DNA of 38,690 nucleotides, from the NCBI GenBank assembly GCA_016790515.1, contig JAEUOY010000122.1, positions 1-38,690 on the forward strand. The letters run 5' to 3'. How positions within the stretch are numbered: position 1 is the stretch's first letter; every line of letters begins with the position of its first letter. The translations under genes and the position numbers were made by a program. This DNA is from Burkholderiaceae bacterium (lineage in GTDB: Bacteria; Pseudomonadota; Gammaproteobacteria; Burkholderiales; Burkholderiaceae_C). The notes under the pieces were generated by a model, which saw only the letters and a program-made list of their open reading frames with translations, had not been told where the DNA came from and did not search any database. Below, in pieces: positions 2,765 through 27,205 of this stretch.

Positions 2765-4159
2765 TTGCGCCTGCACCGGGTGGCCGAACACATCGCGGCT
2801 ATCGATCGATGCACGACTCGCGTTGGCGACACAGCTTTGAGGTATACCTTGCCATCTGCCGTTGCCACTCCCCACACCGTGACCCTGGCCCTGATCACCA
2901 CCGTCCTGCTGGCCACCGGATGTGGCGGAGGCGCCGACGCCAATGGCGGTGCCGATGCAGCGATGTCGGTAGCCGTGCTGCAGGCGATGCCGGACGAGGA
3001 GGATGCGGCGGCTTTCGCCTCGGAGTCGATGGACGACCCCAGCGCACTGGCCCCGGCCAGGGAGATCGACACCGACCGCGAAACTGTCCAACGCGCATTG
3101 CGGATCAACGAAGTTCCCGACATGAGCGCCTCGTCGGCCGCAGTCCTTGGCAGTGGCACGTCCGACCAGGAACTTGCGCAGCCGCAGACTATCGTGGTCG
3201 GAGTGACCGGCAGTCCGACAGCAGTCGAGACCGCGGCGCCTGCGAAGGTCGCCACCGGATCGGGCACGGGCAGTCAAGCCGATGATCAATCCGCCGTCGA
3301 CTTTGCCGATGCCGATGCTGCAAAGCGCGCCTTGGCATCAACCAGCCTTTGGCTGGCCGAGGGAAGCCAGGTAGCGGCGGCGACTGCCGAACCCGCCACG
3401 GGCGGTGCTGCCGCGGCCTCGGCGCCCCAGGGAGGTGCGGTCCTGCCGCTTATCTGGCAAAGCAGTTTCACGAACGGCCTGTCCGACTGGCCCGGGCGCA
3501 CCCAGGGCTGGGGCGAAGCCAATCGAAGTTTCGCGGCCGATCCAGCCGTCTCGGGAAGTGTGATGCGGGTCATCTTCCCCAAGGGCTCGATCGATCCAGT
3601 CACGATGAAGTCGAACGGCCTGCCCTACGGCGGCACAGGGTTCAGATCGAAATTGACCGGCGCGGGCTACGAAATTGCCAGGCTCAGGTACAAGATCAAG
3701 TTTCCCGCTGACTTCGACCCAGCACTGGGCGGAAAGCTGCCAGGGCTCTGCGGCGGCACCTGCAATAGCGGCGGGAAACCGCCGAATGGCACTGATGGGT
3801 TTTCAGTCCGCTATATGTGGACCGGCAACTTCGCAGCCTCGGTATATGCCTACCTGCCGACCACCGTGAAGTATGGCACGCCCATCGGCTCGCGCAGGAT
3901 TCCGCTCAAGCGAGGAAACTGGGTCGAACTCATCCAGGAGGTCAAGCTCAACTCGATCGGATATGCCGACGGACATATCAAGGTCTGGGCCGATGGTGTC
4001 AAGGTCGTGGAAGCCACTGGGCTCACGTTCCGCACGTCGCCGGGCCTGAAGATCGATGCTGTCATGTTCGAGACGTTCTACGGCGGCCATACGGCTGAGT
4101 GGGCGACGCCGAAGGACACCGAACTCATGTTCGCGGAGTTCTCGGTCGAGGCCAGATAG
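2765..4159 (+). CDS. Predicted lipoprotein with polysaccharide lyase family 14 (alginate/glucuronan lyase-like) domain
   Basis: The C-terminal part (residues about 228-464, counted from the ATG at 2765) matches PL14 lyases: LRYKIKFPADFDPALGGKLP, GFSVRYMW, VYAYLP, RGNWVELIQEVKLN, ETFYGGHTAEWATPKD. K324, S347, R349, Y361 and Y363 occur in the order and near-exact spacing I recall for the catalytic Lys, Ser, Arg, Tyr, Tyr set of the Chlorella virus enzyme vAL-1. The N-terminus has a hydrophobic stretch ending LLATGC, a plausible lipobox, followed by about 170 Ala/Asp/Ser-rich residues of unknown function. The start is uncertain: TTG codons at 2837 and 2849 (GAGG just upstream of the latter) give a more typical lipoprotein signal. 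Beta-elimination of a uronic-acid polymer in the periplasm or outer membrane is inferred from family and from the algD neighbour. Confidence 0.8.
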   Translation: MRLHRVAEHIAAIDRCTTRVGDTALRYTLPSAVATPHTVTLALITTVLLATGCGGGADANGGADAAMSVAVLQAMPDEEDAAAFASESMDDPSALAPAREIDTDRETVQRALRINEVPDMSASSAAVLGSGTSDQELAQPQTIVVGVTGSPTAVETAAPAKVATGSGTGSQADDQSAVDFADADAAKRALASTSLWLAEGSQVAAATAEPATGGAAAASAPQGGAVLPLIWQSSFTNGLSDWPGRTQGWGEANRSFAADPAVSGSVMRVIFPKGSIDPVTMKSNGLPYGGTGFRSKLTGAGYEIARLRYKIKFPADFDPALGGKLPGLCGGTCNSGGKPPNGTDGFSVRYMWTGNFAASVYAYLPTTVKYGTPIGSRRIPLKRGNWVELIQEVKLNSIGYADGHIKVWADGVKVVEATGLTFRTSPGLKIDAVMFETFYGGHTAEWATPKDTELMFAEFSVEAR

Positions 4160-15800: not shown

Positions 15801-16490
15801 TCACGATCCCGCCCGTCCGAACACCCGGGCCGCGCTCGCTGCATCCATGTGGCTGACCAGATCGCTGATGAAGAGCGCCTGCAACCGGTGCCCGCCGGCC
15901 ATGTCGTTGTCGATGCTGGAAACACGCACCAGCATGCCGTCGGCGATGATGCCGCGAACGCCATAGCGCATCTGCGCCAGCTTCTGGCCGATGCCGGTGG
16001 TCACCACCTCGCCGCCCACGGTCACCCAATAGGTGATGGGCTCCTTGCGAGGCCCCAGCTGACTCATCAGCTGGCGCACCGGCAGCTGCCGCTGTCCCAG
16101 CGGCACACTGCCCATTCGGTTGACGGTGATGGCAAAGCCCTGTGCCGGGTAGCACACCTCTGGCCGGTGCGCGCTGGTACCGTCGCTCTGGTCACCACCA
16201 TAGGCCACCGACAGCATGATTCGCTGGCCTTCGGCGTTGACATAGGTGCGCGACAGCACCTGGTTGTAGATCTTGTCGAGCAGGGCCTGGACGTCGGGCG
16301 ACGGCAGGATCACCGGCATGCTGGTGTCCACACGCCAGGTGCCGAAAGCCCTGGGGAACATCGCCTCCAGGTCGGGCATGCCCACCTGGTCGGCCATGTG
16401 CTTGGTCGGCCGGCCCAGCACCGCCGCCCCGGCGCTGGCCAGCATCAGCAGCGCCACAAGCAGGGCGCGCCAGCGCGGCGCGTTCATCAT
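15801..16490 (-). CDS. epsI: Exosortase B-associated protein EpsI (B-type)
   Basis: 229 aa with an N-terminal signal anchor (RALLVALLMLASAGAAVLG) and a periplasmic DUF3485/EpsI domain. The family motif HRPEVCYPAQGFAI lies near residues 108-121, preceded by SVAYGGDQSDGTSA and followed by PITYWVTVGGEV. EpsI proteins occur fused to or next to exosortases; their molecular role in EPS export is not settled. The ATG at 16490 overlaps the xrtB stop by four bases, so the pair is translationally coupled. The flippase gene starts 85 bases further on. Confidence 0.9.
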   Translation of the reverse strand: MMNAPRWRALLVALLMLASAGAAVLGRPTKHMADQVGMPDLEAMFPRAFGTWRVDTSMPVILPSPDVQALLDKIYNQVLSRTYVNAEGQRIMLSVAYGGDQSDGTSAHRPEVCYPAQGFAITVNRMGSVPLGQRQLPVRQLMSQLGPRKEPITYWVTVGGEVVTTGIGQKLAQMRYGVRGIIADGMLVRVSSIDNDMAGGHRLQALFISDLVSHMDAASAARVFGRAGS

Positions 16491-17392
16491 GGCTTGGCCG
16501 CCTCTCGGCGGAACGCCAGGCGCAGCACGCTGTCGGTGCCCAGCATCAGCACCAGCCCCACCATGAACAGCACCATGCCGGCAAAGCCATGGATGAAGCC
16601 CTGGCCGGCTTCGTCACCGAAGTGATAGGTGACCAGCACCAGGAGCATCACCCGCACGATGTTGGCGGCGAACGAGATGGGGATGATCAGGATCGCCAGC
16701 AGCACGTTGCGAACCGCGTTCGTGTAGCGCATCAGGTTCATGTAGAGCAGGCCCAGCGCCTCGAGCGTGAACATGCTGTTCAGCCCGGCGCAGGCATCGG
16801 CAACCAGCAGCTGGTAAGGCCCCACGGTCATCACCACGCCGGCACGGCCCACCGGATAGCCCGCCTGGTACAGCAGATTGGCGGCCACGGCAGACACGGC
16901 ACTCTTCAGCGGCCCGGTGACCGATGCCACCACGCTGCCTGGCAGCGGCACCATGAACAGCAGGAAGAACAAGGGAAACCAAACCAGCCGAAGCGCCCGC
17001 GCGCCCAGAAAGAGAAGAACCAGCGCGGCCAGCACCACGATCTGCGAGAACACCTCGAAGAACATGATGAACTGCGACCGGCCGAGTACGTACAGCACCA
17101 GGCCGACCAGAAGCAGCGGCAAGCCCCAGCCGACGCTGGGCTGCGGCTGCAGCGCGGCCAGTTCGTAGCGCTTGCCGTAGAGCAGCCAGAGACTCACCGC
17201 CAGGATGATGGGGCCGTGGCCCTGCTCGTCGCTGGGCCAGATCCGCTGTGCCAGCATCAGGTAGCTGGGCACATAGAGCGCTGCAAAGCCGATCGACAGC
17301 GCCACCAGCGCCAGCAGGTCGGTACCAGGCGGGAGGATGGGCTGCCGCTTGCCGATGGGCGCGGCTTGTCCCGCTCGCGGCGGGGTCGTCAT
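16487..17392 (-). CDS. xrtB: Exosortase B
   Basis: 301 aa polytopic inner-membrane transpeptidase-like protein. The exosortase triad is present: C201 in VADACAGLNSMF, R247 in SFAANIVRVMLL, H268 in GFIHGFAGM. Other family features are WPSDEQGHGPIILAVSLWLL near residue 52 and FFLLFMVPLPGSVVASVTGPLK near 143-163. Exosortases recognise C-terminal PEP-CTERM sorting signals and process the protein at the membrane; the B type is embedded in an EPS operon with EpsI, as here. Its protein substrates are not evident in this window. The start at 17392 lies two bases after the epsG stop. Confidence 0.95.
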   Translation of the reverse strand: MTTPPRAGQAAPIGKRQPILPPGTDLLALVALSIGFAALYVPSYLMLAQRIWPSDEQGHGPIILAVSLWLLYGKRYELAALQPQPSVGWGLPLLLVGLVLYVLGRSQFIMFFEVFSQIVVLAALVLLFLGARALRLVWFPLFFLLFMVPLPGSVVASVTGPLKSAVSAVAANLLYQAGYPVGRAGVVMTVGPYQLLVADACAGLNSMFTLEALGLLYMNLMRYTNAVRNVLLAILIIPISFAANIVRVMLLVLVTYHFGDEAGQGFIHGFAGMVLFMVGLVLMLGTDSVLRLAFRREAAKP

Positions 17393-17394
17393 GC

Positions 17395-18300
17395 TCAGAA
17401 CTCGTTGACGATCACGCCCGCCAGCGTGGCCGGCGTCTCAGCCAGGTTGGCCACCATCTCCTCCAGGCTGACCACCTGGCTCTTGCCTTGACGGGCGATC
17501 ACCAGCGCGGCACCGCAGCGGGCGGCGATCACCGCGCTGTCGCTGCCGTACTGGGCTGCCGGCGTGTCGACCACCACATGGTCGAACTTGCTCAGCAGCT
17601 CACGCATCAGCAGGCCGAAGGCAGGGCGTTCCACCAGCTCCAGCGGGTTGGGCGGCGTGATGCCCACCGGCAGCACGAACAGGCTGGACACGCCGGGCAC
17701 CTGCTGGATGACCTTGGCCTCGGCCCGGCCGCTCAGGATGCCCGACAGGCCGGCATCGTTGGGGATGCCGAACACCTGGTGCTGACGCGGGCCGCGCATG
17801 TCGGCATCGACCAGCAGGGTGCGGCCGCCCAACTGGGCCAGCGTGATGGCCAGGTTGGCGGCGAAGAAGGTCTTGCCGTCACCCGAATCGGGGCTGACCA
17901 CGGCGATGGCGCGGCGATCCTGACCCTCGTTGAACAGCCGCATCATGATCTGGCTGCGGATGGCACGGAAGCTCTCGGCCTGCACGCCGAAGGGCTGGTT
18001 CAGCGCCACCAGTTCGGGGTTGGCCTTGCGCCGGTCTTCTGCAGCATAGGGGTAGTGGAACTGCTGGCTCAGCGCGAACAGCACGTCGTCGGCGCTGGCG
18101 TAGCCCAGCGCGATGGCGGCCTCGCCGAAGCGGATGCCCTTTTCGCGCTGGTGGCGCAGGATCTTCTCGACCTGGTCGGGGTTGAGATTGCGGGTTTCGG
18201 CAATGATCGAGCCGATCGACCGGTCTGCCACCGCCGGGCCGTCGTCGGTCACCACGGTGCTGGTGTCGTTCGTTGCGCTCGAATCCTTGAACTTGGCCAT
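17395..18300 (-). CDS. epsG: Chain-length determinant tyrosine kinase-like ATPase EpsG, with MshEN-like N-terminus
   Basis: 301 aa cytoplasmic ATPase of the BY-kinase/MinD type: Walker A SPDSGDGKTFFAANLA (K143), Walker A' TLLVDADMRGP (about 161-171), Walker B HVVVDTPA. It would act on the inner-membrane chain-length protein EpsF. Two features stand out. Residues 28-80 form two 24-residue blocks separated by five residues (SIG...HQ, REKGI, RFG...QQ), the layout of the MshEN/T2SSE_N domain that binds c-di-GMP in MshE. The C-terminus ends GVIVNEF with no tyrosine cluster, so autophosphorylation of a tail is not supported. The start at 18300 lies one base after the epsF stop. Confidence 0.92.
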   Translation of the reverse strand: MAKFKDSSATNDTSTVVTDDGPAVADRSIGSIIAETRNLNPDQVEKILRHQREKGIRFGEAAIALGYASADDVLFALSQQFHYPYAAEDRRKANPELVALNQPFGVQAESFRAIRSQIMMRLFNEGQDRRAIAVVSPDSGDGKTFFAANLAITLAQLGGRTLLVDADMRGPRQHQVFGIPNDAGLSGILSGRAEAKVIQQVPGVSSLFVLPVGITPPNPLELVERPAFGLLMRELLSKFDHVVVDTPAAQYGSDSAVIAARCGAALVIARQGKSQVVSLEEMVANLAETPATLAGVIVNEF

Positions 18301-18301
18301 C

Positions 18302-19735
18302 TCAGGCGCCCTTGTTGACGGTGGGGGCCGGCAGGCCGATCACGCGTTGTTGCATCTGCAGGGCATGCTTGCCCGCGACGAAGCGCCTGGTGCCGGGCTT
18401 GGGCAGAACGCCCAGAACCGGCAGGCCCAGCGCAGCGATGATGTCCTCAGGCGCACGCACCCGGCGATCACTCAGCTCCAGCAGCAGGGCCACGCCCATG
18501 GCCAGCAGCGCGCCAAGCAGGATCGCCAGCGCGGTGTTCAGCAGGATCTTCGGCGATGCGGGCTCGGCCGGCGGCAGCGCCTGGGTCAGCAGGTTGGCGT
18601 AGCTTTGCGTGGTCTGCGATTCCATCGCGGTCTGGTTCAAGCGGGCCATCACGCCGTCGTAGGCGCGCTGGGCGTTCTCCACCTCGCGCACCAGCACCTG
18701 GCTCTGGTCGCGAACGGCCTTCAGCTGCAGCAGCTTGGCGCGCTGGGCGTCCAGCTCACGCCGCACCTGGGCCTCCCGCTGCTTGTTGATGGTGTTGGTG
18801 ACGCCCACACCGCCCGAGACGCGGCGCACCTCGGCGTCGATGCGGCTGCGCAGTTCGGCAATGTTGGCCTTGGCTTCCACCACCTGCGGGTGGTTGTCGC
18901 CATACTTGGCGTTCAGCTCCTGCAGGCGGGCTTCGTTGCGGGTCAGGTCGGCCTTCAGGCCGCTGATCAGCGGGTTGCTCAGCACCTCCTGCGTACGATC
19001 GGACTGCGCGCCCTGGGCCTGCGCCTGGCGGCTGCCCGACTCGGATGCGATCGCCTGGACCTGCACCAGCTGCGACGACAGTTCGATCAGCCGGGCGTTC
19101 TCCACATCCAGGCGTTCGTCGGCGTTGATGATCCCCTTGTCGCGCTGGAAGGCCGACAGCCGGTTCTGGGCGCGCTCCAGCGCGTCGCGGGCATCCTTGG
19201 ACTGCGCGGCGAAGAAACTGCTGAACTGCTTGGCCGGGTCGACGCGCAGCTCCAGCGTGGTGGCGATGTAGGCCTGGGCGAAGGCGTTGGCCATGCCGGC
19301 GGCAAAGCGCGGGTCGGGCGCTCGGTAATTGACCTGGATGACGTTGCTGTCACGCGAGGGCTTCACGTCCAGGCTCTTCTTCAGCAGTTCGACCAGCCAC
19401 TGTTCGATCGTGCCCTTGCCTTCGCCGTCGGTCTGCCATTGCTCGCGGATCTGCGGGTTTTCGGCGAGCTTCAGATCGCGGATGACCTTCAGCGCCACCC
19501 GGTCGCTGGCGAGGATGTCGACTTGCGTGGCCATGAAACTGGGCAGCGCCATCGACGGGAAGGCCATCGCCGACACCGGGTCGGGCTTGACGTCGATCAC
19601 CACGCTGGCCGCGCCGTCGTACTGCCTGGGCAGCAGCAGGCTGACCACCACGGTGGTCGCCACCACCAGCGCGAACACCAGCAGCGCCGCCCATTTGCGC
19701 GCGCGCAGGATCGACAGGAACTGTCCGAAGGTCAT
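18302..19735 (-). CDS. epsF: Chain-length determinant protein EpsF (Wzz family)
   Basis: 477 aa inner-membrane co-polymerase. There is an N-terminal Wzz domain with a membrane segment at about 14-34 (KWAALLVFALVVATTVVVSLL), a long periplasmic helical region rich in Gln/Arg/Glu coiled-coil sequence (about 160-400), and a second membrane segment near 420-445 preceded by PPAEPASPKI, the proline-rich element usual before TM2. It sets polymer length together with EpsG and the polymerase. It begins after a 354-base gap behind epsE, so it may have its own promoter; the bases just before the ATG carry only a weak ribosome-binding sequence (GGGAAAG). Confidence 0.92.
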   Translation of the reverse strand: MTFGQFLSILRARKWAALLVFALVVATTVVVSLLLPRQYDGAASVVIDVKPDPVSAMAFPSMALPSFMATQVDILASDRVALKVIRDLKLAENPQIREQWQTDGEGKGTIEQWLVELLKKSLDVKPSRDSNVIQVNYRAPDPRFAAGMANAFAQAYIATTLELRVDPAKQFSSFFAAQSKDARDALERAQNRLSAFQRDKGIINADERLDVENARLIELSSQLVQVQAIASESGSRQAQAQGAQSDRTQEVLSNPLISGLKADLTRNEARLQELNAKYGDNHPQVVEAKANIAELRSRIDAEVRRVSGGVGVTNTINKQREAQVRRELDAQRAKLLQLKAVRDQSQVLVREVENAQRAYDGVMARLNQTAMESQTTQSYANLLTQALPPAEPASPKILLNTALAILLGALLAMGVALLLELSDRRVRAPEDIIAALGLPVLGVLPKPGTRRFVAGKHALQMQQRVIGLPAPTVNKGA

Positions 19736-20089: not shown

Positions 20090-20944
20090 CTAGAAGAGGC
20101 TCTCCCGCACGAACACCACATCGCCGTCGCGCATCGTCTCGTCCATCTTCGGCGTGATCACCTGTACCTTGCCGTCGGGCCCCTTGCGATGCACACGAAT
20201 GTCCTTCTCGGTGCCGCGCTGGGTCAGGCCGCCGCCGGTGGCCAGGCTCTGCATCAGCGTCATGCCGCGCTCCAGCCGCATAGGGCCAGGGCGTTGAACC
20301 TCGCCGTAGATGTAGACCATGGCTTGGCGGTCGACCCAGACGGAGTCGCCGTTCAGCACAAGGATGTCCTTGTCCTTGCCGCCGGCGGCGAAGACCGTCG
20401 GCAGGTCGATTTCGGTGCGGAAGGGCTGGCCGTTACGAGTGCCGGTGATGACGATCAGCTCGGTGCCGTTGTTGGCCACGCCGCCGGCCATCGCCAGCAG
20501 GTCGGTCAGGCGCATGTCGGCCACCTCGATCGGGTAGCGGCCCGGGCGGTTCACCTGGCCCAGCACGCTGGCCTGATTCCCCCGCACTTGCAGCACCACG
20601 ATGGTGACCTGCGGCTGCTTCACGAAATTGCCGTTGCGCAGGCCATCGGCGATCAGCTTCTCGGCTGCGGTGACGCTCAGGCCGCCCAGGCGGATGCTGC
20701 CCAGCAGAGGGTAACTGACGACACCGGCCTCGGTGACGCGCGTCTCGAGTGTCAGGTCGGGGTTCTGGTAGACGTTGATGCGGATCACGTCGCCCGAGCC
20801 CAGGCGGTATTCGTTCGCCGCGGGCGCAGCAGCGACCTGGGCGGTGGCGAGGACTGGAGCGAGGCCCAGGGACAGCCCGATCGCCAGACTGGCGGCAATC
20901 GCGGTGCCCGCTCGGCGGGCTGGCAGCAGCAGGTCGTTGATCAT
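20090..20944 (-). CDS. epsE: Polysaccharide export protein EpsE (outer-membrane Wza/KpsD-like)
   Basis: 284 aa. A signal sequence (residues about 1-36, ending ATAQV) is followed by the Poly_export domain EYRLGSGDVIRINVYQNPDL, VSYPLLGSIRLGGLSVTAAE, and two SLBB-type segments (ASVLGQVNRPGRYPIE; VYIYGEVQRPGPMRLERGMT). It would form the outer-membrane export channel or its periplasmic part. Unlike Wza there is no lipobox cysteine after the signal, so acylation is not predicted. The ATG at 20944 shares one base with the epsD stop; the far longer open frame that includes it upstream is out of frame with epsD and has no similarity. Confidence 0.92.
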   Translation of the reverse strand: MINDLLLPARRAGTAIAASLAIGLSLGLAPVLATAQVAAAPAANEYRLGSGDVIRINVYQNPDLTLETRVTEAGVVSYPLLGSIRLGGLSVTAAEKLIADGLRNGNFVKQPQVTIVVLQVRGNQASVLGQVNRPGRYPIEVADMRLTDLLAMAGGVANNGTELIVITGTRNGQPFRTEIDLPTVFAAGGKDKDILVLNGDSVWVDRQAMVYIYGEVQRPGPMRLERGMTLMQSLATGGGLTQRGTEKDIRVHRKGPDGKVQVITPKMDETMRDGDVVFVRESLF

Positions 20945-21903
20945 CACTTCAGGCCCATCCCTTTGTTGATATCGGTGGCGTTCAGACTGGCACTGGCCGC
21001 CGGCGCCGCCGCCGGCGCCGACGCGGCCGCCGCCGCTGGCGCGCCTGCGCCGAACTTGCCCACGTACTCGATCTTGGCCGCCGCGCGCATCGCCTTGACG
21101 TCCTCGTCCATCAGCTTGCGCTTGCGCTCGTTGAGCAGGTACTGCTCGATCGCCGGGCGCGCCTGCTCTTCGCCGACGGGCTGGCTGCGCGAGCCGGCCA
21201 GCACCAGCACCTGCACGCCGTTGGGGCCCTGGTTGATGATGGCCTGGCCATCCTGCAACCTGGCGAAGGCGTCCAGGCTCTGCAGCGGCAGCTGCTCGGC
21301 GGCACGCACGGCCTGGTTGCCGCTGAACTTGAAGTCGTTGGCCTTCAGGAACTCGACGAACTCGTTGATGTTCTTCGCGGCACTCAGCTTCTCGCGCAGC
21401 ATCGGCACCTGGTCGGGCCTGGCCTCGATGCCGATCTCCTGGATGCTGTAGATGCGGCGCTCCTTGAACAGCGCGGGCTTCTCGTCGTAGTACTTCTTGA
21501 TCTCTTCGGGCGTCGGCTTGCTGGCGGCTTCGCCGACCTTCTCGAGGTAGGCGCGGGCGATGATCTCGCGCTTGGCGGCCTCGAGCTGCTGCACCACGCG
21601 CGGGTCGCGGTCGATCTTCAGGTCGTCGGCCTTCTGCAGCGCCAGTTCCTGGTCGATCAGCCGCTCGAGGATCTGCTTGCTGGCGGCGTCGGCCTGTTCC
21701 GGCCGGATGTTGCGCTGCTGCTGCAGCACGAAGTTGATCTGGTGGACCGTGATCTCGCTCTTGTTGACCTTGGCCGCGGTCTGGCTGGCGGCCTTGTCCT
21801 TCTTGTCGCCACAGCCGGCCAGCAGCGCCACCGAGATGGCCAGCGCGAGCGCGCCGATGCGCAACACGCCGCTGCGGGAGGCCGGGGATTCCTGCGTCTT
21901 CAT
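20944..21903 (-). CDS. epsD: EpsD family peptidyl-prolyl cis-trans isomerase-like lipoprotein
   Basis: 319 aa. The N-terminal signal ends in the lipobox VALLAGC, so it is a predicted lipoprotein. A SurA/PrsA-like N-terminal helical domain (ITVHQINFVLQQQRNIRPEQ, ILERLIDQELALQKADDLKI) is followed by a PPIase-type core (PTPEEIKKYYDEKPALFKER, FVEFLKANDFKFSG) and an Ala-rich tail. It may help outer-membrane assembly of the export machinery (inference). The ATG at 21903 is chosen for its lipoprotein signal and AAGGAG 11 bases upstream; 25 further in-frame residues upstream would precede the signal. It is the first gene of the minus-strand EPS operon. Confidence 0.9.
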   Translation of the reverse strand: MKTQESPASRSGVLRIGALALAISVALLAGCGDKKDKAASQTAAKVNKSEITVHQINFVLQQQRNIRPEQADAASKQILERLIDQELALQKADDLKIDRDPRVVQQLEAAKREIIARAYLEKVGEAASKPTPEEIKKYYDEKPALFKERRIYSIQEIGIEARPDQVPMLREKLSAAKNINEFVEFLKANDFKFSGNQAVRAAEQLPLQSLDAFARLQDGQAIINQGPNGVQVLVLAGSRSQPVGEEQARPAIEQYLLNERKRKLMDEDVKAMRAAAKIEYVGKFGAGAPAAAAASAPAAAPAASASLNATDINKGMGLK

Positions 21904-22025
21904 GTTCGGGTCGACTCCTTCCCACTGCGGGGATGCCAGGGTGCCTGCGCCATCCGCGAAGCGCCGGGGGCCTGTCACAGATCAGACCACGAGTGTAATG
22001 GCCGTCCATGACCACCCTGGGGCCG

Positions 22026-24975: not shown

Positions 24976-24994
24976 TTGGCCCCTGGATGGCCAA
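24976..24994. promoter_or_regulatory. Inverted repeat in the eamA-eutB divergent region
   Basis: TTGGCC (24976-24981) and GGCCAA (24989-24994) flank a 7-base spacer, overlapped by a second dyad ATCCA/TGGAT (24971-24975, 24984-24988). It lies between the divergent transporter and eutBC genes, the right place for an operator. A TACTAT sequence at 24967-24972 could be a -10 element, but no -35 was found. Confidence 0.3.
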
Positions 24995-25037
24995 ATCCGG
25001 GAGGGCGTGTCATGCCGACCGTGGCAGACTGGGCAGC

Positions 25038-26438
25038 ATGGGCTACCGCGCCACGCTCGGCGGCGAAACCTACCGCTTCGCCACCCTGGCCGACCTGATG
25101 GCCAAGGCCACGCCCGAGCGCGCGGGCGACCAGCTCGCCGGCATCGCCGCCGACAGCGCGCGCCAGCGCGTGGCCGCCCGCGAGGCACTGGCCGATCTGC
25201 CGCTGGCCACCTTCGTGCAGCAGGCGCTGGTGCCCTACGAGGCCGACGAGATCACCCGGCTGATCATCGACAGCCACGATGCCGCGGCGTTCGCGCCGGT
25301 GGCGCACCTGACGGTCGGCGGCTTTCGCGACTGGCTGCTGGGCGACGCCGCGACGACCGCCACGCTGGCCGCGCTGGCGCCGGGGCTGACGCCCGAGATG
25401 GTGGCCGCTGCAGCCAAGCTGATGCGCAACCAGGACCTGTTGCTGGTGGCCAGCCGGGTGCGGGTGGTCACGCGATTCCGCGACACGATCGGCCTGCCCG
25501 GCACGCTGGCGGTGCGGCTGCAGCCCAACCACCCGGCCGACAGCCCGGCCGGCATCGCCGCCAGCATCCTCGACGGGCTGATGTACGGCGCCGGCGACGC
25601 GGTGATCGGCATCAACCCGGCGGCCGACAGCGTGCCTGCCATGGTGCAGCTGCTGCACCTGCTCGACGAGCTGATCGCCCGCCACCAGATCCCGACCCAG
25701 GGCTGCGTGCTGACGCACGTGACCAACACGCTGCAGGCGATTCGCCTGGGTGCGCCGGTCGACCTGGTGTTCCAGAGCATCGCCGGTACCGAGGCCGCGA
25801 ACCGCAGCTTCGGCATCGGCCTGGCCCTGCTCTACGAGGCGCATGCCGCGGCGCTGGCGCTGAAGCGCGGGCCGCTCGGCGACAACGTGATGTATTTCGA
25901 GACCGGCCAGGGCAGCGCGCTGTCGGCCAACGCCCACCATGGCGTCGACCAGCAGACGGTCGAGGCGCGGGCCTACGCGGTGGCGCGGCGCTACCGGCCG
26001 CTGCTGGTCAACACGGTGGTCGGCTTCATCGGGCCCGAGTACCTGGTCGACGGCAAGCAGATCGTGCGCGCCGGGCTGGAGGACCATTTCTGCGGCAAGC
26101 TGCTCGGCCTGCCGATGGGCTGCGACATCTGCTACACCAACCACGCCGAGGCCGACTCGGACGACATGGACAACCTGCTGGTGCTGCTGGCCAGCGCCGG
26201 GCTGAACTTCATGATGGGCGTGCCGGGTGCGGATGACGTGATGCTGAACTACCAGAGCACCTCGTTCCACGACGCGCTGTTCGTGCGCCAGCTGCTGGGG
26301 CTGAAGCGCGCGCCCGAATTCGAGGCCTGGCTGCAGCGGCTGGGCCTGACCGACGCCGCCGGCCGGCTGCTGCCGGCGCCGCAGCGGCCGGCGCTGGCGG
26401 CGTCGTTCAGCCCGCTGCTGGACGGGCCGCCGCGATGA
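25038..26438 (+). CDS. eutB: Ethanolamine ammonia-lyase large (heavy) subunit
   Basis: 466 aa. With EutC it uses adenosylcobalamin to convert ethanolamine to acetaldehyde and ammonia. Family features are LMRNQDLLLVASRVRVVTRF, the substrate-site stretch VRLQPNHPADSPAGIAASIL (conserved R-x-Q), GDAVIGINPAADSV, TQGCVLTHVTNTL, VFQSIAGTEAANRSFGI, VMYFETGQGSALSANAHHG and MGCDICYTNHAEADSDDMD. Length is close to the enteric enzyme (about 453 aa). The ATG at 25038 starts just before the conserved N-terminal block; an in-frame ATG 51 bases earlier is less likely. No eutA reactivase, eutL or microcompartment shell genes are visible, so this is the simple catabolic form. Its stop overlaps the eutC start by four bases. 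Confidence 0.95.
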   Translation: MGYRATLGGETYRFATLADLMAKATPERAGDQLAGIAADSARQRVAAREALADLPLATFVQQALVPYEADEITRLIIDSHDAAAFAPVAHLTVGGFRDWLLGDAATTATLAALAPGLTPEMVAAAAKLMRNQDLLLVASRVRVVTRFRDTIGLPGTLAVRLQPNHPADSPAGIAASILDGLMYGAGDAVIGINPAADSVPAMVQLLHLLDELIARHQIPTQGCVLTHVTNTLQAIRLGAPVDLVFQSIAGTEAANRSFGIGLALLYEAHAAALALKRGPLGDNVMYFETGQGSALSANAHHGVDQQTVEARAYAVARRYRPLLVNTVVGFIGPEYLVDGKQIVRAGLEDHFCGKLLGLPMGCDICYTNHAEADSDDMDNLLVLLASAGLNFMMGVPGADDVMLNYQSTSFHDALFVRQLLGLKRAPEFEAWLQRLGLTDAAGRLLPAPQRPALAASFSPLLDGPPR

Positions 26439-27205
26439 ACGAGCTGCCCGCCGCCGGCGCGACGCCGGCCGACCCCTGGGTCGATCTGCGCCGCCACACG
26501 CCCGCGCGCATCGCGCTGGGCCGCGCTGGCGGCAGCCTGCCCACTGCCGAGCTGCTGCGCTTTGCCGCCGCCCATGCCCAGGCCCGCGATGCGGTGCACC
26601 TGCCGCTGGACGTGGCCGCGCTGAACGCGGCGCTGCAGGCCGACGGCTGGCAGCCGATCGAGGTGCACAGCCGCGCGCCGCAGCGCGATGCCTACCTGCG
26701 CCGCCCCGACTGGGGCCGCCGGCTGGCCGCGGCCAGCGCCGAGCGGCTGCAGCACTGCGCCGGCGCGCCGGTCGACCTGGCGGTGGTACTGGGCGACGGC
26801 CTGTCGGCGCTGGCCACGCAGCGCCATGCGGTGCCGCTGCTGCGCGCGCTGCGCGAGGCGCTGGCCGGCGCACTGACGATCGCGCCGCCGGTGATCGCGC
26901 TGCAGGCCCGGGTGGCGCTGGCCGACGAGATCGGCGCGCTGCTGCAGGCCCGGCTGGTGCTGATCGTGCTGGGCGAGCGGCCGGGGCTGAGCTCGCCCGA
27001 CAGCCTGGGCGCCTACCTGACCCACGCGCCGCAGGTCGGCTGCAGCGACGCGCAGCGCAACTGCGTCAGCAACATCCGGCCCGAGGGCCTGCCGCCCGAG
27101 CTGGCGGCTCGCCGGCTGGCCTGGCTGCTGCGCGAGGCGCTGCGCCGCCGGCTGACCGGCATCGGACTGAAGGACGACAGCGCCACCGAACTGCTGGCGC
27201 CATAG
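26435..27205 (+). CDS. eutC: Ethanolamine ammonia-lyase small (light) subunit
   Basis: 256 aa. Contains the EutC features DLRRHTPARIALGRAGGSLP, LPLDVAALNAALQADGW, RRPDWGRRLAAASAERL, DLAVVLGDGLSALATQRHAV, VLIVLGERPGLSSPDSLGAY, and CSDAQRNCVSNIRPEGLPPE near the C-terminus, which contributes to the cobalamin-binding surface in the family. Translationally coupled to eutB (ATGA overlap at 26435-26438). It ends 15 bases before the convergent ABC ATPase gene. Confidence 0.95.
   Translation: MNELPAAGATPADPWVDLRRHTPARIALGRAGGSLPTAELLRFAAAHAQARDAVHLPLDVAALNAALQADGWQPIEVHSRAPQRDAYLRRPDWGRRLAAASAERLQHCAGAPVDLAVVLGDGLSALATQRHAVPLLRALREALAGALTIAPPVIALQARVALADEIGALLQARLVLIVLGERPGLSSPDSLGAYLTHAPQVGCSDAQRNCVSNIRPEGLPPELAARRLAWLLREALRRRLTGIGLKDDSATELLAP

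Follow-up and report, generated by a model that had tools for sequence, protein, structure and literature searches.

How is the c-di-GMP signal of bacteria linked to the length of an exported polysaccharide, and can a small domain in front of a kinase-like module be the link? The question is raised by an epsG-like gene in an exopolysaccharide (EPS) cluster of a Burkholderiaceae bacterium (assembly GCA_016790515.1), located on a stretch of 38,690 nucleotides (contig JAEUOY010000122.1, positions 1 to 38,690) that is referred to here, over its full length, as the window. Sequence comparisons and a structural model lead us to the view that EpsG is probably a stand-alone partner of EpsF, resembling the bacterial tyrosine kinases (BY-kinases) and equipped with a putative cyclic di-GMP (c-di-GMP)-sensing MshEN_N domain at residues 28-81. 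The features discussed below are collected in Table 1.

The N-terminal domain comprises two 24-residue blocks separated by a five-residue spacer, which a preliminary description of this DNA had placed at 18061..18219. This placement is exact, with residue 28 starting at 18219 and residue 80 ending at 18061, and the individual residues had also been read correctly: Arg1, Gly3, Gly10, Leu21 and Gln24 in block 2, and Gly3, Leu12, Leu21 and Gln24 in block 1, where positions 1 and 10 are occupied by Ser and Arg. Gly3 and Gln24 are present in both blocks (G30, Q51, G59, Q80), while positions 2, 17 and 21 of both are hydrophobic (I29, V44, L48, F58, V73, L77); five of these six are Leu or conservative replacements and one is aromatic, with just two being the Leu of the consensus. 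NF053729, the NCBIfam model of the MshE-type c-di-GMP domain, matches residues 29-80 over positions 2-53 of its 53 (expectation value (E) 5.5e-8), and a position matrix, built on 20 MshE-type domains that had been picked as high scorers within the order, scores the protein at 12.0, whereas 300 shuffled versions of it reach at most 3.9. Given the NF053729 match and a matrix score that lies far above the shuffles, the two-block pattern is beyond chance.

The structural evidence points in the same direction. The AlphaFold2 model of the EpsG-like protein has a mean predicted local distance difference test (pLDDT) score of 90.9, with ten-residue means of 91-98 over residues 31-80, and its N-domain contains helices at 29-36, 41-54, 58-64 and 70-81, i.e. 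the four-helix MshEN_N fold. MshE with bound c-di-GMP (5htl) is the top Foldseek match and the best among solved structures (root-mean-square deviation 1.5, 56 columns); the fold is a prediction, and the ranking of 5htl as best PDB match carries the caveat that applies to helical bundles. By sequence comparison, 5htl is found at E 5e-11 with the EpsG family profile and at E 5.8e-4 with the EpsG-like protein alone, while XpsE is found by the family profile at E 0.35-0.5 only. The latter is a non-binder by virtue of changes at several contact positions, according to the part of PMC5013675 available to us. Hence, the assignment of the N-domain to the MshEN type is borne out by profile, by the comparison with 5htl and by the predicted fold.

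In order to establish how far the blocks are conserved, EpsG proteins were collected with TIGR03029, the NCBIfam EpsG model, which at E<=1e-40 had matches in 78 of the 300 genomes searched from the order. The resulting set of 77 EpsG consists of 76 loci and the window protein, nine kinase-domain-only matches (L081-L089) having been excluded; a set of near relatives comprises the best 80 of 549 confirmed matches (Paucibacter, Rubrivivax, Aquabacterium, Roseateles and kin, all with Burkholderiales-type names). NF053729 matches all 77 EpsG at E<=0.01. Its cut-off is passed by 16 of 29 EpsG in a 100-genome set, one of which needs a neighbouring match to be added, and the remaining 13, among them the window protein, fall below it. 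In block 1, Arg1 is present in 9/77 proteins, Gly3 in 77/77, Gly10 in 69/77 and Gln24 in 61/77; the corresponding figures for block 2 are 70/77 for Arg1, 77/77 for Phe2, Gly3 and Gln24, 59/77 for Gly10 and 72/77 for Leu21. Indeed, G30, F58, G59 and Q80 represent four of the twelve invariant columns in the whole-protein alignment of the 77 EpsG. Among the near relatives together with the window protein, F58, G59 and Q80 are found in 81/81 and Q51 in 80/81, and the quartet formed by Gly3 and Gln24 of both blocks is complete in 138 of 156 EpsG, with three of the four kept in the other 18. Conservation thus speaks for a functional site at Gly3 and Gln24 in both blocks, and at positions 1, 2 and 21 of block 2, and against one at the Arg1 of block 1.

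The two block-1 positions that the preliminary description had singled out behave differently from one another. Arg1 is not a feature of the family, whereas the outcome for Gly10 is mixed: it is frequent in the order sample, yet residue 37 is Gly in just 12/81 of the near relatives and window protein, with R, N, K, H or A in the other 69. Where Gly37 is lost, G, N or D occurs at residue 38 in 51 of 76 proteins, compared with none of the 81 in which it is kept (157 proteins in total), and this suggests from the alignment that the turn is shifted by one residue, though largely within one clade. In an EpsG subset (L017, L018, L027 and kin), Ala or Ser replaces the block-1 Gln24 (residue 51) and the other polar contacts are kept. 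Outside the order, a 398-genome search of the phylum revealed two EpsG, one of which (L175) retains the contacts and the other (L176) is changed at 58 and 80. Within the order sample, the proteins nearest to that of the window are L075 (55% identity) and L074 (50%), both from genome G058, which has four EpsG-like genes (L059, L074, L075, L080).

Whether it is the ligand site or simply the fold that is conserved was assessed on a tree of 156 EpsG (76 from the order sample, the two from outside the order and otherwise near relatives) and 30 XrtA-associated kinases; L078, cut by a contig end, and the truncated L129 were left out and one identical row was merged. For the 12 contact positions of c-di-GMP in MshE, taken from the list in PMC5013675, the median is 10 changes, compared with 42 for the remaining 41 domain positions (Mann-Whitney p 1.8e-4). 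Block 2, together with the Gly3 and Gln24 of each block, accounts for this contrast: G30 and G59 did not change, F58 and Q80 changed once each and Q51 seven times, as against 24 changes of the P-loop Lys143. The better control came from canonical PilB proteins within the order, placed in register with the EpsG profile. All 25 PilB keep 0-1 of the four polar contacts, although only five of these alignments span all four positions of the quartet and the other 20 cover part of them; Ala stands at the position of Q51 in 24/24 of those covering it, and neither a Gly at 59 nor a Gln at 80 was found. GspE was not used as a control, being aligned in only 4/17 cases and then as fragments; in the best ungapped segment within the first 320 residues, one GspE kept three of the quartet and one kept two.

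The preliminary description spoke of an EpsG kinase, and here the label needs qualification. The window protein does contain a BY-kinase-like domain in which Walker A, A' and B are all present (K143, D165, D167, D245), as is a segment at residues 109-115 (E109/R112/R115) that we take to be the EX2RX2R motif of BY-kinase rings. The P-loop Lys143 is found in only 11 of the 77 EpsG and lost in 66, of which 32 have Arg and 34 some other residue, while being kept in 64/80 near relatives and in 30/30 XrtA kinases. The last 25 residues of the window protein contain no Tyr; the corresponding counts are 0-1 in 76/76 EpsG of the order (L078 being outside this count) and 0-2 in 80/80 near relatives, compared with 3-8 in all 30 XrtA-associated kinases, which as the best-scoring 30 of 52 listed matches favour canonical members. 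As a tyrosine cluster is lacking and most relatives have no P-loop lysine, the term kinase is doubtful for EpsG. None of the 10 XrtA kinases scanned matches NF053729 at E<=0.01. The genome of the window has an XrtA-associated kinase of its own (L200, contig C145:52069-52689), whose P-loop is intact and whose tail carries a long repeat of tyrosine and glycine. Low-molecular-weight phosphatases have two matches elsewhere in the genome and none in the window, an observation of little weight given that the assembly is 82% complete. We make no claim of many independent ATPase deaths, since the 24 changes at Lys143 fall to 7 when scored as Lys or not Lys and to 3 when scored as basic or not basic.

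A number of observations weigh against a c-di-GMP-binding function of the N-domain. The NF053729 score of the window protein (32.5 bits, or 36.1 in the genome search) is below the curated cut-off of 38, and MshEN (T2SSE_N) did not appear in a Pfam scan of the protein at E<=1; nor is MshEN among the 11 Pfam families matched by the 77 EpsG at E<=0.01. Block 1 has S28 where R57 of block 2 has the Arg (or Lys/Leu) of position 1, a position at which Arg is not kept in the family, and R37 where block 2 has the turn glycine, G66; this glycine is lost in the window protein and in most of its near relatives. Furthermore, block-1 positions 28, 44 and 48 changed 46, 35 and 33 times on the tree, and the non-contact positions 61, 62, 65 and 72 change as slowly as the contacts, implying that the conservation is partly due to the fold. 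The score below the cut-off, S28 and R37 in block 1 and the missing Pfam match would suit a degenerate T2SSE_N fold that serves as a protein-contact module, docking to EpsF or to a neighbouring EpsG, and binds no nucleotide, the more so as PilB of the order retains a related N-domain despite its lost contacts. Such an explanation seems to us rather unlikely: the polar contact residues of EpsG are, unlike those of PilB, invariant or nearly so, and in view of this comparison a degenerate fold is disfavoured for the EpsG family, though it stays conceivable for the window protein itself. The absence of a Pfam match is taken to reflect the sensitivity limit of that model, because the NCBIfam model and the PDB profile search do find the domain. 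As regards position 1, the MshEN Arg can be replaced by Lys or Leu with tighter binding, according to the accessible part of PMC11731258, in which Ser is not covered.

Two further explanations would retain a nucleotide in the family. It is conceivable, though distinctly improbable, that EpsG proteins bind c-di-GMP in general and that the clade of the window protein, with its block-1 glycine lost, has weakened or lost this binding and uses ATP. The replacement of Gly37 in 69 of 81 proteins and the retention of Lys143 by most near relatives would agree with such a loss, yet the same 81 proteins hold F58, G59, Q80 and, with one exception, Q51, and the G, N or D at residue 38 looks as if the turn had shifted. 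An apparent tie between loss of the block-1 Gly10 and retention of the P-loop Lys, strong by raw counts (71 and 65 versus 11 and 10), was rejected and treated as clade history, because supported branches yield no more than four independent pairs (sign test p 1). Very improbable, in our estimation, is a different ligand, for instance a dinucleotide of the cGAMP (cyclic GMP-AMP) type, or one guanine nucleotide held by the second half-site, the better kept of the two. Conservation is much stronger in block 2 than in block 1, and Phe replaces Leu at position 2 of block 2 in 77/77 proteins, as might be expected in that case; however, both halves need the Gly3 and Gln24 residues, which are so widely retained across the 156 EpsG, and cGAMP is bound only weakly by MshEN in the accessible text of PMC5013675. 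A c-di-GMP-sensing N-domain continues to be the reading we prefer.

The genomic setting of the gene is that of an EPS cluster with EpsD, EpsF, the EpsG-like protein, exosortase B and EpsI, each identified by NCBIfam models. On the 301-residue protein, TIGR03029 scores 276.5 bits over residues 26-299, which is below its cut-off of 313.8, so that the protein is best treated as a member of an EpsG-like subfamily; TIGR01007 scores 127.1 bits against a cut-off of 108.05. Beyond EpsI, on the same strand, lie frames with Wzy-like and glycosyltransferase domains, with a weak flippase match among them (NCBIfam, 36 bits against a cut-off of 800). The arrangement recurs in the near relatives: EpsF lies within 300 nucleotides upstream of epsG in 71 of the 78 that have at least 1500 nucleotides upstream, and XrtB within 1500 nucleotides downstream in 46 of the 74 with enough sequence. 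Near the end of the cluster there is a frame with a polysaccharide lyase 14 domain (window 2765-4159, plus strand), and the cluster is adjoined by eutB and eutC, encoding the large and light subunits of ethanolamine ammonia lyase (window 24987-27205, plus strand).

Table 1. Features of the epsG-like gene and its EPS cluster (window coordinates; fractions give the occurrence of the residue among the 77 EpsG).
Feature	Coordinates	Strand	Details
epsG-like gene	17395..18300	minus	open reading frame, 301 residues: MshEN-like N-domain and BY-kinase-like P-loop ATPase domain
MshEN block 1 SIGSIIAETRNLNPDQVEKILRHQ	18148..18219	minus	residues 28-51; Ser at position 1, Gly3, Arg at position 10, Gln24
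Spacer REKGI	18133..18147	minus	residues 52-56, five residues
MshEN block 2 RFGEAAIALGYASADDVLFALSQQ	18061..18132	minus	residues 57-80; Arg1, Phe2, Gly3, Gly10, Leu21, Gln24
EX2RX2R (ESFRAIR)	17956..17976	minus	residues 109-115; E109 76/77, R112 76/77, R115 77/77
Walker A (SPDSGDGKT)	17869..17895	minus	residues 136-144; Lys143 present in window protein
Walker A' (LLVDADMR)	17794..17817	minus	residues 162-169; D165 77/77, D167 46/77 (Asn 31/77)
Walker B (HVVVDTP)	17560..17580	minus	residues 241-247; D245 71/77
epsD family peptidyl-prolyl isomerase	20944..21978	minus	TIGR02925 247.1 bits, cut-off 108.9
epsF, membrane/periplasmic chain-length (polysaccharide co-polymerase, PCP) partner	18302..19735	minus	TIGR03017 564.4 bits, cut-off 422.75
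Exosortase B (xrtB)	16487..17392	minus	TIGR03113 361.9 bits, cut-off 275
epsI, B-type	15801..16490	minus	NF045609 283.7 bits, cut-off 220

With respect to c-di-GMP in the wider genome, 26 GGDEF match rows were recorded, and Rfam, at gathering scores, showed no c-di-GMP riboswitch in the window. Overlapping MshEN-type blocks also occur in a PilB/GspE-like ATPase frame of 868 residues (contig C69:1737-1985, L001/L002), with NF053729 scores of 43.9 and 37.3 bits; on account of these blocks the frame is likely, judged by its sequence, to be a second c-di-GMP receptor of the genome.

The EpsG domain can be compared with several known systems. It shares with the MshEN domain of Vibrio MshE and the GSPII domain of Thermus PilF the 24-residue blocks, the five-residue spacer, the twofold occurrence of Gly3 and Gln24 and, as predicted for EpsG, the four-helix MshEN_N fold. 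It differs from them in being fused to a BY-kinase-like domain rather than a pilus or secretion ATPase, and in the window protein there is no room for an MshEN_C subdomain, Phe occupies position 2 of block 2, and the Arg1 and Gly10 of block 1 are missing. The window protein resembles the EpsG family TIGR03029 of XrtB-associated EPS clusters in the extent of its match and in adjoining EpsF and XrtB, but it scores below the equivalog cut-off and retains an intact P-loop, which 66 of the 77 sampled proteins do not. With the BY-kinases Wzc, CapAB and BceF, EpsG has in common the fold, Walker A, A' and B and EX2RX2R, while lacking their C-terminal tyrosine cluster and possessing an additional MshEN N-domain. 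NfrB, the c-di-GMP-activated glycosyltransferase of E. coli, offers a precedent, as far as its accessible description goes, for control of polysaccharide production by MshEN, although there the domain is fused to a glycosyltransferase and in EpsG to a chain-length partner; the NfrB model matches 54/77 EpsG.

A closer parallel is provided by EcpK, a BY pseudokinase of Myxococcus xanthus, for which the accessible text of PMC12004946 is our source. Like EpsG, it is a stand-alone partner of a PCP of class 2 (PCP-2) and has no tyrosine tail, but it lacks all Walker motifs, which the window protein has, though many EpsG miss the P-loop lysine. In canonical PCP-2 systems (Wzc), the cycle is driven by phosphorylation of the C-terminal tyrosine tail, whereas EcpK acts with EpsV without phosphorylation, and how a pseudokinase stimulates PCP-2 is left there as a question (PMC12004946). 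Term counts gave zero occurrences of c-di-GMP, MshEN and EpsG in the main text of that paper. Among the MshEN proteins named in the available part of PMC5013675 is one for exopolysaccharide biosynthesis in Methylobacillus, for which the methanolan cluster paper is cited; the gene is unnamed in that text, and we infer that it is EpsG. The presence of the domain on EpsG is therefore probably not new. By title and abstract, no report of EpsG as a c-di-GMP receptor was found in the literature searched, where most subscription papers were out of reach, and the accessible text of PMC11340318 and PMC4195743 contains nothing on an MshEN-like EpsG domain. As far as the literature searched extends, the retention of a ligand site, set against the loss of the tyrosine tail, is undescribed.

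How such a protein could work may be pictured as follows. The MshEN_N domain would bind one c-di-GMP between its two blocks, and the BY-kinase-like domain would form, or join, a ring at the base of EpsF on the cytoplasmic side via its EX2RX2R surface, to which the N-domain would be connected through a linker of ~25 residues. Binding of c-di-GMP to the N-domain would then shift assembly or release, and in this way set polymerisation and chain length. The window protein may combine inputs from ATP and c-di-GMP, since its ATP site looks intact. More tentatively, and with rather less confidence than we attach to the domain itself, we propose that in XrtB-type EPS systems the co-polymerase cycle may have come to be switched by c-di-GMP instead of by tyrosine phosphorylation, making EpsG a putative ligand-gated BY-(pseudo)kinase. 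This proposal is founded on the loss of the tyrosine tail and, in many cases, of the catalytic lysine from proteins whose c-di-GMP-type pocket is nearly unchanging.

The pattern of conservation pinpoints G59 and Q80 as the residues of interest, and the XrtA kinase of the same genome represents a paired in-genome control. If the proposal is correct, the machine that determines polymer length would be a direct target of c-di-GMP, besides gene expression or a synthase. The question of how a BY pseudokinase drives PCP-2 assembly and release without tyrosine phosphorylation would then also be answered, for this one family.
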